Source: Leptolyngbya iicbica LK (GTDB lineage Bacteria > Cyanobacteriota > Cyanobacteriia > Phormidesmidales > Phormidesmidaceae). From it: DNA of 64,000 nucleotides. Within the stretch, counting starts at the first letter, position 1. Every line of letters starts with the position of its first letter. This document shows, piece after piece, positions 790 to 7,208 of this stretch. The stretch spans positions 1 to 64,000 of the forward strand of contig NZ_QVFV01000006.1 of assembly GCF_004212215.1 (NCBI RefSeq). Reading direction: 5' to 3'. The notes below the pieces were generated by a model that saw only the letters and a list, made by a program, of their open reading frames with translations, ran no database searches and was not told the DNA's origin. A program made the translations under genes and the position numbers.

Positions 790-865
790 AAAAAAACCGA
801 CGGGACTCCCGTGTGCCCATCGGTTTGTGTGTGTTCCCTGTAGATGACTCGGCTAGAGTTGAGTC
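790..865 (-). ncRNA. Candidate small RNA of about 75 nt with its own promoter and terminator
   Basis: On the minus strand a promoter-like pair TTGGAG (895-900) and CATACT (872-877), spaced by 17 bases, predicts a start near 865. The RNA would begin with a hairpin GACTC/GAGTC (865-861 with 850-846), continue through an unpaired A/C-rich stretch, and end in a terminator hairpin. In that hairpin AAACCGA pairs with TCGGTTT (820-826 with 794-800), extended by GGG/CCC, and seven U residues follow (796-790). No convincing protein gene lies on this strand here. The layout (5' hairpin, unpaired middle, terminator) is typical of cyanobacterial small RNAs, but I do not recognise the family; the Yfr1 core motif is absent. 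Confidence 0.5.
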
Positions 866-920
866 CTTATCAGTATGTTCAAGTACGTGTTTTCCTCCAA
901 GGATCTCTATCACCAGACAG

Positions 921-936
921 AGTGACATTGATCACA
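921..936. promoter_or_regulatory. CRP/SYCRP1-type palindrome (9 of 10 arm positions)
   Basis: The sequence is AGTGA-CATTGA-TCACA. It matches the cAMP-receptor-protein consensus TGTGA-N6-TCACA at nine of ten arm positions. Its centre (928.5) is about 63 bases upstream of the predicted start of the minus-strand small RNA, close to the classical class I activator position, and about 160 bases upstream of the purL start codon. Inference from sequence only. Confidence 0.45.
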
Positions 937-1089: not shown

Positions 1090-3441
1090 ATGGTTGCGCC
1101 CTTTTCCCCTGATGAGATCGCGTCTGAAGGCATTAAGCCTGACGAGTATGAAGAGATTGTGCGGCGGTTAGGCCGACATCCCAACCGCGCCGAGTTGGGC
1201 ATGTTTGGGGTGATGTGGTCGGAGCACTGCTGCTACAAAAATTCGCGCCCGTTGTTGAAACAGTTTCCCACTGAGGGTGATCGCATCCTGGTTGGCCCGG
1301 GTGAAAATGCAGGGGTCATTGATGCGGGCGATGGCCTGCGGGTAGCGTTCAAGATTGAGTCTCACAATCACCCCTCAGCGGTGGAGCCATTTCAGGGAGC
1401 GGCCACGGGGGTGGGGGGCATCCTGCGAGATATTTTTACCATGGGGGCACGCCCGATCGCGGTGTTGAATGCGCTGCGGTTTGGCACCTTGGACAATCCC
1501 CGCACCCGACAAATTGTGAATGGTGTGGTGGCGGGCATCGCCCACTACGGCAACTGTTTTGGGGTGCCCACGGTGGGCGGCGAGGTCACCTTTGACAAAG
1601 CCTATGCCGGCAATCCATTAGTAAATGCGATGGCGATCGGCCTGATGGAGACGCCGGAAATTGTGAAGTCGGGTGCTGCGGGCATCGGCAATCCAGTGTT
1701 GTATGTGGGGTCTACCACGGGGCGCGATGGCATGGGCGGCGCGAGTTTTGCCAGTGCGGAACTTACCGACGCCTCCCAGGACGATCGCCCAGCGGTGCAA
1801 GTGGGCGACCCCTTTCTAGAAAAATCTTTAGTGGAAGCTTGCCTGGAAGCCTTCAAAACCGGAGCTGTGGTAGCAGCCCAGGATATGGGGGCAGCGGGGA
1901 TCACCTGTTCCACTTCTGAAATGGCGGCCAATGGGGGGGTCGGGGTCGATGTAGATCTGGATAAGGTGCCCAACCGCGAAACGGGCATGGTGCCCTACGA
2001 ATATTTACTATCGGAATCTCAAGAGCGGATGCTGTTTGTGGCGCAAAAGGGGCGCGAGGCCGAACTGATCGAGATTTTTGAACGGTGGGGTTTGCACGCT
2101 GTCGTCGTCGGTAAAGTGATTGAAGAACCCATCGTACGCATTCGCTTTCAGGGGGCGATCGCGGCGGAGATTCCGGCCAATGCCCTGGCTGACGACACGC
2201 CGCTGTATCACCGCGAGTTGATGACCGATTTGCCGGACTATGTCAAAACGGCGCGGCAATGGTCAGAGGCGAATTTGCCAGGGTGCGATCGCGCGGGCCT
2301 CCAACTAGCTCAAGGCTCGCAACCTTGGACGGACGTTTTAAAAATGCTGCTCGACAGTCCCACGATTGCCTCCAAGCAGTGGATCTATCGTCAGTATGAC
2401 CATCAGGTGCAAAACAATACGGTGTTGTTGCCTGGTGGGGCGGATGCGGCGGTGATTCGCTTGCGGCCTCAAACCGGCGACCAAGCAGCGGCCTTTGTCA
2501 ATACCCGCAAGGGCTTGGCCGCCACAGTGGACTGCAACGGTCGCCATGTGTATCTCGATCCCTATGAGGGAGCCAAGGGGGCGATCGCTGAAGCGGCTCG
2601 CAACCTGAGCTGTGTCGGGGCGACCCCTGTGGCCGTAACCGATAATTTAAATTTCGGCAGTCCTGAAAAGGCCATTGGCTATTGGCAATTGGCCGAAGCC
2701 ACGCGGGGATTAGCGGATGGCTGTCGCGATTTTGGTACGCCGGTGACCGGCGGCAATGTTTCCCTCTACAACGAGACCTTGGATAGTGACGGCAACCCGA
2801 CCCCCATTTATCCCACTCCGGTGGTGGGCATGGTGGGGCTGCTAGACGACGTGACTCAGGCAAAGGGGCAGGGGTGGCAGCAAGCGGGCGATCGCATCTA
2901 TTTGCTCGGGGTGAAGTTGGAGGCGATTGCCGATACCCCTGACCTCGTCACCCTCGGCGGTTCGGAATATCTGGCCGTCGTTCACGATACCGTGGCCGGT
3001 CGGCCACCCCAGATAGATGTCGCGTTAGAGCAATCAGTTCAAGCGGCCTGTCGCCACGGCATTCATCAGGGGTGGGTACAATCAGCCCACGATTGTGCCG
3101 AGGGGGGCTTTGCCGTCGCTACCGCAGAATCATGCATCAGCGGTCAATTGGGGGCTAGTGTTCAGCTTCCGGAGATCGCCGCCGATGGGCGGTGGGATCG
3201 ACTCCTGTTTGGCGAAGGAGGGGCGCGGATTATTGTCTCCGTAACTCCAACCGCGATCGCAGACTGGGAAGCTTACCTGCAAGCGCATCTCGAGGGCTAC
3301 TGGCAAGCCATCGGAACGGTTACCCCCGCCGCTGATGGCCTCGCGCTCACCACGGTTGATGATCAGCCCATTGTGCAAGCGGCGATCACCGATTTAACCA
3401 CGGTTTGGGAAAGCGCGATCGCCCGCCGATTAAGCAGTTAA
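1090..3441 (+). CDS. purL: Phosphoribosylformylglycinamidine synthase subunit PurL
   Basis: The 783-residue protein catalyses the ATP-dependent amidation of FGAR to FGAM, the fourth step of purine synthesis. It matches the bacterial three-component type, in which PurL works with separate PurQ and PurS. Visible hallmarks are SEHCCYKNS near residue 43, the ESHNHPS and [11 protein letters not shown] stretch near 90-110 (ATP and FGAR binding), GGEVTFD, and the C-terminal half with DNLNFG and [10 protein letters not shown]. There is no C-terminal glutaminase domain, consistent with a separate PurQ. The ATG at 1090 is the only good start and the length is usual for cyanobacteria. Its neighbours are not purine genes. 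Confidence 0.97.
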
Positions 3442-3492: not shown

Positions 3493-6057
3493 TTACACGG
3501 GCACTCGCCCCTCGGCACGACCATACATCAGGTAGTGTTCAAAACCGCTGACCAAGTCACCGGCGGCTACAGCCGCCGCCACATCGCCATAGCGCCCCAG
3601 ATAAGCGCTCTGATCAAATAATTCAGACGGATTACGCCCCTCACTTTGACCAATGGCAAAGAAGTGGTACATCCCCAATGCGATTTTGCCGGCTTGTACG
3701 GCAGCCGCCACATCCGGGTTCTTTTCGAGATAGAAAGCCTCATCAAATAAGAAGCCTGACTGTCGCCCTTCTTCAATACCAAACTCGGCATAATGCTCAA
3801 AAGCGCTGTCAATTGCCCCCGCCGCGATCGCCCCTTTGACATCAGGATTATTCAGCAGGTAATCCTCAGCATCAAACACCGCATTAGGATTGCGCTGTTC
3901 ACGATGTCCAAAGGTAAAGAAATGAGCGATCGCGCTACGCACAGTGCCATTCTTTACCGCAGCAGCCACATCAGCGTTTTGCTCCAAATAGTAGTCTTGG
4001 TCAAACCACCGCCCTGGCCCCCGGCCCTCATCCATCCCGTACAGCACAAAGTGCTCAAAGCCATAGCGTAGGCGTCCCTGCTGCACGGCTACTGCTACAT
4101 CGGGGTTAGCGTGCAAGTACGCCGCTTCATCAAATAGAGGGGCTACCCTCAGGCCGCCAATTTGGATATTAAAGTCCACCAAACTGCTTTGATATACCAC
4201 GCCCGTTTTGATGGCCACACGAGAGACCCAGTGCTCAAAGTTCAGAAAACTATTGGCCACAAATCGGTTAAGCGTGTCAGTGGCACTGTTGGTTTGAGCA
4301 TCAGTGGCCAGGGTAAATAAATCGCCAGCGGCAAAATTAATCCCGCTAAACGTCACGACATCGCCATTAATCTTGCGCCCATTGGTAAATACCGATGCAT
4401 TGCTAAAGTCAGTATCGGTATCAACGAGCAAAGCAAAGTCTTTGACATCAGTGAGGTTATAGCCCAAGCCAGTGAGGTCAAAACTAATCTCAACGGTGCC
4501 GACTTCCCCGGTTTCGGCTACTTGCCAGAGACGACTCAATCGTTCTGGATACGCTGCTGGCGTATTGTTACTGACGCCTGCTGCACTGGCATCACCATCG
4601 TCATTCCCAATCAGCAAAAATTCATTGTCATCCAAATCAGAGGCATTGCTCAGCGTCACAATGCTGTCGTCATTGCTGCTGCGCGACTGCGTTTGGTTGA
4701 GGGTGCTGAGCGTATCCTGACCAATCCCAAAAATGTCATTGGCATACAGGCTGTTAGCTCCGTCAGTATCAAAGACGACATTCCCCGCAGTGCTGGTGTA
4801 GTCCGCATTGATTAAAGTCGTGCCGTATTTTATGGCCAAATACGTTTCAACCTTATTGCGCTCAGCCGCATCCAAGTCATCGTTATAAATTAGAATTTCG
4901 GCAATTTGCCCTTCATAGTTACGGTCAAAATTACTAGCTTTGCCAATAAAGTTGGCGGTTCGTTGCACATTTGTGGGTTTGTCAATAAAGCCGTTGCCAC
5001 TTAACTCGCCATTGGCCCAAAAATTGACAGGGTTGTTGGCTTGTTGCACCACCCCATAAATTTTAAACTCGCCATTATTGATCACATCGTTAGTGGTAGT
5101 GTTGGCCACTAAAAATTGATTGGGTTGACCAACTGTGCCATAGGCTAAGTCGTTGCCAGCATCTCTCCTAGAAAAGAACACGGCGTTTGTGACGTTGTTC
5201 GGATCGGTCGTGTCGCTAAAGTCAAAAAATCTTGCGAAGTTACTACTGGTGTCTGGCTTCGCGACGACAAAAGCAGACAGCCCCCCGGTAAAATCGGCAA
5301 AGCCTGCGGGCAACTCAACATAACCACCAGCAAAATCAAGGGCGGCATTACCGTTGATCGCATTGAGATTCAGTGTGACTGCTCCAGTGCCAGTGCCGTT
5401 CTGGTTATTGCCTGATTGATCGGCCCAGGCAGTGACAGCTCCCCCGCCCTGGGTCACACCAGCGTTGGCTTTAAGCCAGAGTTGCTGACTGTTACCGCCC
5501 CCAAAAGCAGGCAGAATGCCTGGATAATATTCGAAATTAATCAAGGCAGTCGTTAGGGTGCCAAGCCGATATTCAAGCTGCGGATCCCCCCCCTGGCGTG
5601 GATTCCCCGTGGGCGTTTTTGAGGCGGCAATGTTTGCTTGGGTAAGTTGTTGGATTTGCTGGATGAAGGCCTGACCGATCGCTCCCTGCGCGACTTCACA
5701 GCCATAAATCAAAACATCGATATCGACAGCGAAAAACTCTTGCCACGCGCTGATCTGTTGACTGTAGTGAGTCAAGCTATATCGATCAAGCAGAGTGTTA
5801 CCGATCGAAAGTTGGCCAGGCGCCCCGTGACTGATGAGGTGCAGGCTGCGAATTGCCGTATTGGAAGTCTGAATAGCCGCAGTGAGCTGGGCAATACCAT
5901 CTTGTTCTGCGTCTAAGATCACCACTTGGGCATCGGCTCTAATCTGGCTGAGCAAGCTAGCATGGTCGGCTACCTGGGCTGCGATCGCAACCAAATGGCG
6001 ACCTTGGGCCACGCCGGTCTGTCGGTTAATAGCAGCAATCGAAGATGAGCTAAACAT
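3493..6057 (-). CDS. Large DUF4347 / LamG-like protein with five C-terminal repeats
   Basis: From the ATG at 6057 the protein has 854 residues. Residues ~20-165 are a DUF4347 domain with LHLISHG (His77) and DVLIYGC (Cys120). Residues ~185-410 look like a concanavalin/LamG-type jelly roll (AALDFAGGYVELP, then a closing EILIYNDDLDAAERN). A further beta-rich region runs to ~620. The C-terminus carries five imperfect ~43-residue repeats with the pattern FDxxxYLxxNPDVAxAV...HFxxFGxxEGR. Such architectures occur in large cyanobacterial cell-surface or exported proteins, but I see no cleavable signal peptide. In-frame upstream starts at 6111 (ATG) and 6174 (GTG) are possible; none has a clear ribosome-binding site. 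The gene is convergent with purL. Function unknown. Confidence 0.85.
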   Translation of the reverse strand: MFSSSSIAAINRQTGVAQGRHLVAIAAQVADHASLLSQIRADAQVVILDAEQDGIAQLTAAIQTSNTAIRSLHLISHGAPGQLSIGNTLLDRYSLTHYSQQISAWQEFFAVDIDVLIYGCEVAQGAIGQAFIQQIQQLTQANIAASKTPTGNPRQGGDPQLEYRLGTLTTALINFEYYPGILPAFGGGNSQQLWLKANAGVTQGGGAVTAWADQSGNNQNGTGTGAVTLNLNAINGNAALDFAGGYVELPAGFADFTGGLSAFVVAKPDTSSNFARFFDFSDTTDPNNVTNAVFFSRRDAGNDLAYGTVGQPNQFLVANTTTNDVINNGEFKIYGVVQQANNPVNFWANGELSGNGFIDKPTNVQRTANFIGKASNFDRNYEGQIAEILIYNDDLDAAERNKVETYLAIKYGTTLINADYTSTAGNVVFDTDGANSLYANDIFGIGQDTLSTLNQTQSRSSNDDSIVTLSNASDLDDNEFLLIGNDDGDASAAGVSNNTPAAYPERLSRLWQVAETGEVGTVEISFDLTGLGYNLTDVKDFALLVDTDTDFSNASVFTNGRKINGDVVTFSGINFAAGDLFTLATDAQTNSATDTLNRFVANSFLNFEHWVSRVAIKTGVVYQSSLVDFNIQIGGLRVAPLFDEAAYLHANPDVAVAVQQGRLRYGFEHFVLYGMDEGRGPGRWFDQDYYLEQNADVAAAVKNGTVRSAIAHFFTFGHREQRNPNAVFDAEDYLLNNPDVKGAIAAGAIDSAFEHYAEFGIEEGRQSGFLFDEAFYLEKNPDVAAAVQAGKIALGMYHFFAIGQSEGRNPSELFDQSAYLGRYGDVAAAVAAGDLVSGFEHYLMYGRAEGRVPV

Positions 6058-6575
6058 AGTTTTTTGCAATAAAAAATAACTGTGTAAACAGAAGCATGAC
6101 GTTGATGCCATTGGAGGAAAACGACACTCGAGGCATCGAGTATTAAGAGCGATCGCCCCCCTCAAACAGCGCACAGCTCAAATTGAAATCATGCGCAGTA
6201 CACTTCCAAATATTATTGGCCGCTCATACGCATAATCACTGACTCAGGAGTATTAAATTGTTCGAAACTTTGCGCCAGCTACGGAAATTTGTTCAAAACT
6301 TTGCAGTACTTCTGGCGATCGGCAAAACTACTGCGCTAAACCACGGTTACGCGCTTTCTTGGCACGCACGAATCACGCAATATGCCGTGAAAATCTAGAG
6401 CTTAAATCAGCACTCAGGTTAGGAAGTCGCTGAGCAATCAGCTCATGCAACTGATAGAGATGAGCGGCCCAAAATGAGTGCTTGAGAGCAAGCACACAAA
6501 GGCTAAGAATGACCTAACGGGTGGGAGTCCAGACGCAACCGTTACGGACATCAACATAAAGTCTGGAATGGCCTG
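6058..6575. other. Intergenic region with short direct repeats and a small hairpin
   Basis: No gene is supported here. Two near-identical copies of a TTGTTCGAAACTTTGC-like sequence lie at 6255-6273 and 6285-6304, on the upstream side of the DUF4347 gene, and could be a regulator binding site. A small perfect hairpin GTGCTTG-agag-CAAGCAC is at 6478-6495 and lies downstream of the HAS-barrel gene, without a T-run. Confidence 0.4.
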
Positions 6576-7208
6576 CTAGCGCATGGCCCCCATGGTGTTT
6601 TTCCAAGAGAGTTCTTTGCACAACACCGTGAGCGCTCGTTGATCAGCTCCGGTGAAGAGGTTGCTGTCAATCAGTTCGGTCAAGACCTGCTGCGTGAGTT
6701 GCGCTGCGAACAATCCGCCCGATCGCAATAAATGGCTGTAGTAGCGGAATTGCGGCTGCCCTGTCACCGTACAGTGGAAGCGGTGTACCGTTTCGGCATC
6801 AAGACTATACACGTTGGTATTTACGGGGACGACTTCTTTGGGAATGCCATGCTGGCCATAGGGCATTGAGCCATTATTTTCGAGACAGCCCACGAGCACA
6901 ATCCCCAGCAGAGTGCGGGTTTCGCTGATGAGATCGGGCGTAAACATGGGGTCAGGTTCACTCGACAGGCGTGGGCCATTGTTGAGAAACATCGGATTGA
7001 CGAGCTGCGAATTATAAATGAGGCCCACCGCCCAATGGCGATCGCCATCTTCCAGAGCAACAAACCGCCCAAAGCCATAATCTTCGGGTTGTGGTGGCGT
7101 TACTACGTCATGACTGTCATCTACTTGAATAACGTAGTCGCAGTGAGAGTTCGACTTAACCACCTTGCCAATGCGTTGTGAGTGGGCGACTGGGTCTAAA
7201 AAATCCAT
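6576..7208 (-). CDS. HAS-barrel domain-like conserved cyanobacterial protein
   Basis: This is a 210-residue soluble protein. The N-terminal ~90 residues (PVAHSQRIGKVVKSNSHCDY, then DYGFGRFVALED and WAVGLIYNSQLVNP) resemble the HAS-barrel beta domain found at the start of HerA-type ATPases. A stand-alone form is common in cyanobacteria. The rest is predicted alpha/beta with no catalytic motif and no membrane segment. The ATG at 7208 gives the full domain. It stands alone, with non-coding DNA on both sides. Domain assignment is from memory of the family; the cellular role is unknown. Confidence 0.8.
   Translation of the reverse strand: MDFLDPVAHSQRIGKVVKSNSHCDYVIQVDDSHDVVTPPQPEDYGFGRFVALEDGDRHWAVGLIYNSQLVNPMFLNNGPRLSSEPDPMFTPDLISETRTLLGIVLVGCLENNGSMPYGQHGIPKEVVPVNTNVYSLDAETVHRFHCTVTGQPQFRYYSHLLRSGGLFAAQLTQQVLTELIDSNLFTGADQRALTVLCKELSWKNTMGAMR

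Follow-up and report, generated by a model that had tools for sequence, protein, structure and literature searches.

Positions 790-865 of the window (the whole stretch of DNA that we analyzed, 64,000 nucleotides at the start of a Leptolyngbya iicbica LK contig) probably hold, on the minus strand, a stand-alone gene for a conserved cyanobacterial regulatory small RNA, one that would be switched on by a SyCRP1-type CRP and act in trans by pairing. An earlier note on this DNA had proposed a CRP-controlled small RNA here. Chance can be excluded as the origin of the arrangement, because the DNA is kept in relatives, the RNA is kept across the class and the CRP palindrome is kept at a fixed distance.

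Layout of the predicted small RNA gene

The predicted gene is about 76 nt long and runs from 865 to 790 on the minus strand, with +1 placed at 865. The conserved stretch begins at the first base beyond the -10 spacing and runs on to the U tract, and it matches R1, a covariance model built from 20 sequences of close relatives, at 100.8 bits. The 76-nt RNA folds at -24.3 kcal/mol (z = -3.4 against dinucleotide shuffles). Both the MFE and centroid structures contain a 5′ hairpin, GACUC-N10-GAGUC (846-865, minus), followed by the conserved stretch AUCUACAGGGAACACACAC (827-845, minus), which is single-stranded in the fold and is a candidate target-binding site; GGGAACACAC lies within this linker (829-838, minus). 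The RNA ends in an intrinsic terminator, a GC-rich stem-loop and then U7 (790-826, minus), found by the fold and by an independent terminator scan. Upstream on the same strand are the -10 box CATACT (872-877), 6 nt before +1, the hexamer TTGGAG (895-900) and two CRP-type sites. The first of these, TGTGATCAATGTCACT (921-936), is a 9/10 match centred at -63.5, and the second, GGTGATAGAGATCCTT (899-914), is a degenerate CRP-like site whose centre, at -41.5, falls exactly 22 bp downstream of that of the first. The earlier note had described a compact unit of about 75 nt on this strand, with a 5′ hairpin, an unpaired stretch and a U7 terminator, and all of its elements were found in place.

The same note had located the unit between psbD and purL, and this also held. 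The 5′ end of psbD (1-81, minus, start codon at 81), whose first 27 residues match PSII D2 residues 1-27, lies downstream of the small RNA in the same direction, starting about 700 nt past the terminator. The divergent neighbour is purL (1090-3441, plus; Pfam AIRS/AIRS_C/FGAR-AT linker). Elsewhere in the window, positions 3493-6174 (minus) encode a protein of 893 aa that has a DUF4347 at its N-terminus, a LamG-like domain, and C-terminal repeats resembling FDEAAYLHANPDVAAAV.

Conservation, folding and possible targets

A DNA query of positions 781-960 matched 59 of the order's 65 genomes at E ≤ 1, clearly so in about 50. In the resulting alignment the stretch that starts with GACTC and ends with the U tract is nearly identical, and the sequence outside it changes fast, apart from the -10 region and the CRP palindrome. 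Across Cyanobacteriia, R1 found the RNA in 186 of 390 genomes and 85 of 159 genera. A broader model, R2, built from 107 diverse matches, found it in 187 of the 390 and in almost the same set, and the near agreement of the two models suggests that presence or absence is sharp and not a matter of sensitivity. Carriers among the matches listed in a pattern scan of named genomes include Nostoc, Anabaena, Calothrix, Fischerella, Tolypothrix and Mastigocoleus, together with Leptolyngbya, Nodosilinea, Leptothoe, Adonisia, Phormidium and Acaryochloris. In 59 genomes sampled across the phylum, the sister non-photosynthetic classes gave no convincing match to the RNA, the single marginal one having E = 0.007. 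Weak model matches on the antisense strand and a match in an Acidimicrobiaceae MAG (L138) were set aside as chance or contamination. The earlier note had made its proposal depend on conservation of the hairpins and the palindrome in relatives, and both proved to be conserved there. By this comparison the predicted RNA is an ancient cyanobacterial family and not peculiar to this locus, and the RNA with its putative CRP-type switch is conserved in about half of the sampled oxygenic cyanobacteria.

In an alignment of 105 distinct sequences, in which 90.4% of cells pair, both-side changes occur at 9 of the 14 pairs, compared with a mean of 3.6 in shuffles (0 of 500 as high) and 6 pairs or fewer in slid controls; the alignment was fitted to the model, making these counts somewhat generous. 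Most of the covariation comes from the terminator stem, with both-side changes at 7 of its 9 pairs. The 5′ hairpin is essentially invariant in the family; its five-pair helix shows few double changes, and distant relatives have GU pairs and a small number of compensatory forms (for example AACUC/GAGUU in L076). In the Nostoc group this helix loses its outer and fifth pairs to A.C and G.G mismatches, and an inner ACUC/GAGU helix is possible there. The compensatory changes exceed the controls, and the RNA is, on the evidence of the alignment, a conserved structured RNA. The linker core, GGGAACACA, is near-invariant across the Cyanobacteriia copies. A small coding ORF seems unlikely on inspection, as the core is kept base by base and the linker carries single-base indels, unlike a reading frame.

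In the mechanism that we propose, the RNA would start at or near 865, fold its 5′ hairpin, expose the near-invariant single strand and stop at the intrinsic terminator. The exposed AUCWAYAGGGAACACAC strand would pair with several mRNAs and lower or alter their translation, and the CUC-containing 5′ loop might perhaps pair with mRNAs as well. The main rival to this proposal accepts the RNA and its CRP link and has the exposed GGGA-containing strand bind or titrate a protein instead of pairing with mRNA, which we consider unlikely while giving it more weight than any other alternative. Such a protein-binding role would suit the extreme conservation of the unpaired, purine-rich core, as well as the 2-5 tandem copies found in several genomes, which are expected of a sponge. 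It would also suit the result of an exact-complement search, in which no complement near start codons was shared across the family except the gene's own antisense. On the other side, no partner protein is known, and ANGGA-type CsrA sites are typically found in hairpin loops, whereas the core of this RNA sits in the linker. This alternative had also been put forward for Yfr1 by Voss et al. (PMC2190773).

Pairing with mRNAs is still the mode of action that we prefer. Within the genome the exact 10-nt complement of the core has five occurrences, including the gene's own antisense, and a search for the 20-nt complement with up to 3 mismatches found none elsewhere. One exact core complement, GTGTGTTCCC, is found immediately upstream of the ATG of a gene for a response regulator (L227 1501-1513; G000:C2:1371195). 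We do not claim this site as a target because such sites are no commoner than expected in the family.

The promoter, its proposed activator and ownership of the CRP sites

The palindrome that the earlier note had read at 921-936 has close counterparts throughout the family: among 195 distinct copies, the best match to TGTGAN6TCACA reaches 8/10 or better in 96%, compared with 3.9% for shuffles. Its centre falls between -60.5 and -66.5 in 89% of these copies, mostly at -63.5 or -64.5. We then looked at an anchored set, the 73 copies whose CRP site is at -63.5; GTGA and TCAC are both at 100% in it, partly by construction given that the set was selected by a CRP score of at least 8/10. The -41.5 site played no part in that selection, and in the anchored copies T-47, G-46 and A-45 reach 95-97%, T-44 73%, T-38 73% and C-37 74%. 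In the -10 box of the same copies, A-11, T-10, A-9 and T-7 are at 95-99%. The profile of the anchored copies contains no conserved -35 hexamer, and a promoter scan of the window locus returned no sigma-70 match, TTGGAG agreeing with TTGACA at only 3 of 6 positions. Since a -35 hexamer is not conserved, and the -41.5 site is conserved and overlaps its position, we take the -41.5 site and not a -35 to be the conserved element. Known cyanobacterial CRP promoters have the -10 box about 22 bp after the CRP site (PMC2633013), and the spacing between the -41.5 site and the -10 box here fits that pattern.

These results divide what the earlier note had said of the promoter. It had paired TTGGAG with CATACT at 17-nt spacing as -35 and -10; the positions are real and CATACT is conserved, but TTGGAG does not stand as a -35. 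It had also put the CRP centre about 63 bases before the start, near the class I position, and the distance is right, but class I activation with a sigma-70 -35 is not what the comparison points to. Instead, the promoter seems to be a tandem CRP promoter, with the CRP consensus at an activating distance and conserved predicted centres at -63.5 and -41.5. With two CRP-type sites and a -10 box, as drawn from sequence comparison, a rise in cAMP would place CRP on both sites and recruit RNA polymerase, with class II contacts from -41.5 and class I-like contacts from about -63.5.

The genome encodes a 235-aa CRP-type regulator that is SyCRP1-like, has a cNMP domain and matches CRP structures, with cAMP binding being putative. 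Strong matches to this protein (CRP1) are present in 146 of 149 RNA carriers and 95 of 186 non-carriers (Fisher p ~3e-25, kinship uncorrected), as counted by hand in those of the 390 genomes that are at least 90% complete, and many CRP1-carrying genomes are thus without the RNA. Because the cut of E < 1e-60 was chosen with the list already in view and kinship is uncorrected, we treat the co-occurrence as support and not as proof. An activator from elsewhere in the CRP family would leave the regulatory RNA real and change only its switch. In favour of such an activator, NtcA and another CRP-like protein are among several cNMP-domain proteins encoded in the genome, and the second site matches the CRP consensus only in degenerate form. 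However, the upstream site is a canonical TGTGAN6TCACA that misfits the NtcA consensus GTAN8TAC (PMC3898017), and the RNA co-occurs with CRP1; we therefore find another activator improbable and keep the SyCRP1-like protein as the preferred one.

Clustering of the flanking ORFs showed the commonest neighbours of the RNA to be purL (divergent), apcD (convergent) and a gene of about 210 aa (convergent). The purL-family cluster holds 34 flanking ORFs across lineages, the apcD neighbour matches allophycocyanin alpha-B structures, and the ~210-aa gene gave no Pfam or NCBIfam match. A relative of this last gene is found within the window itself, at 6576-7208 (minus). A well-placed CRP site is present in 34 of 34 copies beside purL, in 36 of 37 beside apcD without purL, in 22 of 23 beside the ~210-aa gene and in 39 of 47 elsewhere. 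In several genomes the RNA is found as 2-5 tandem copies per locus, most of which keep their own pair of CRP sites. Arrays of 3-5 copies are seen at L194, L101, L134, L177, L179, L186 and L156; at L156 the upstream CRP site is lost in 2 of the 3 copies. The CRP sites belong to the RNA, we conclude, because they are kept without purL adjacent and in most tandem copies. With the palindrome centre some 161 bp upstream of the purL start codon, the sites could in principle serve the divergent purL promoter and leave the RNA incidental. We regard this as very unlikely, because their spacing to the RNA is constant even at loci without a neighbouring purL, in lineages with no flanking gene in common, and in the majority of tandem copies; this context test led us to reject a role as a purL element. 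Equally improbable is a cis-acting leader or attenuator of the downstream gene: psbD does follow the RNA in the same direction in the window, but a conserved terminator ends the RNA gene well short of the psbD start, and the psbD leader was rejected because the downstream neighbour in relatives varies by lineage and is mostly convergent.

Two near-identical copies of the RNA, at L104 2420-2496 (G279:C17:13119-13195) and L092 2511-2588 (G070:C11:151210-151287), are without the CRP sites and the -10 box. These are possibly second copies expressed from the 3′ end of another gene.

Comparison with known RNAs and CRP regulons

The control of this RNA, as predicted, resembles that of enterobacterial CRP-controlled small RNAs, while the RNA itself is similar to Yfr1 in layout and presumably in mode of action. 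CyaR, which is activated, and Spot 42, which is repressed, are enterobacterial small base-pairing RNAs under direct CRP control. In general features rather than sequence, the cyanobacterial RNA differs from both in being shorter and in having the tandem -63.5/-41.5 arrangement as its own. Hfq dependence would not be expected for this RNA. Among conserved trans-acting cyanobacterial small RNAs are the Yfr2 family, PsrR1, NsiR4 and IsaR1, several of which have a dedicated transcription factor; these have other sequences and regulators, and the window RNA has no Rfam match to any family.

The earlier note knew of no described RNA with this layout at this locus, and our searches agree. Rfam 15 gave no match on the RNA, either at the gathering score or at E ≤ 10 on the local stretch, for the window and ten homologous loci, and a literature search for the RNA motif and for CRP-linked cyanobacterial small RNAs found nothing relevant. 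Brenes-Alvarez 2016, a survey based on transcription start sites plus terminators, reports 327 predicted small RNAs in Nostoc sp. PCC 7120 (PMC4734099). The sections of that survey covered by our search name no such RNA, CRP link or apcD/purL locus. The Nostoc homologue may be listed, unnamed, among the 327 predictions, which would lower the novelty of the discovery and leave the mechanism unchanged.

The cyanobacterial CRP sites predicted by Xu and Su 2009 lie in front of protein-coding transcription units, and none of the CRP targets in that study was common to more than 5 genomes (PMC2633013). The consensus (TGTGAN6TCACA) and the protein family are the same as those considered here, whereas the RNA promoter is common to far more genomes than any target predicted in that study. 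Cyanobacterial cAMP-CRP signalling, which is linked to light, motility and nitrogen, presents a puzzle in that nearly all of its predicted CRP targets are restricted to particular lineages (PMC2633013). A CRP-linked RNA present in roughly half of the oxygenic cyanobacteria sampled, with the tractable Nostoc among them, would supply a conserved output for the cAMP signal. We put at roughly even chances the broader claim that, of all the direct outputs of cAMP-CRP in cyanobacteria, an undescribed small RNA with a tandem CRP promoter, and no protein gene, is the one conserved most widely, and that it turns a rise in cAMP into post-transcriptional control of many mRNAs. If this is true, CRP regulons that seem unrelated between species would share an RNA-mediated core. 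Rfam, for its part, would gain a missing family for which a covariance model is ready.

Yfr1 is built from a 5′ stem-loop, an unpaired linker of 16-20 nt with an ultraconserved motif and a 3′ terminator hairpin (PMC2190773). The window RNA is likewise small, stand-alone and found in cyanobacteria only, with two stem-loops around an unpaired linker of 19 nt. The differences are that it is without ACUCCUCACAC, having AUCUACAGGGAACACACAC as its linker, that it carries CRP sites, and that its neighbours are purL and psbD (in relatives purL, apcD or the ~210-aa gene) and not the guaB/trxA neighbourhood of Yfr1. Identity with Yfr1 was ruled out by the motif, by these neighbours and by the presence in the same genome of a separate Yfr1-like gene (L279; G000:C8:39738), which contains the exact motif and reads ACTCCTCACAC, with an upstream hairpin and a terminator with a U-tract.
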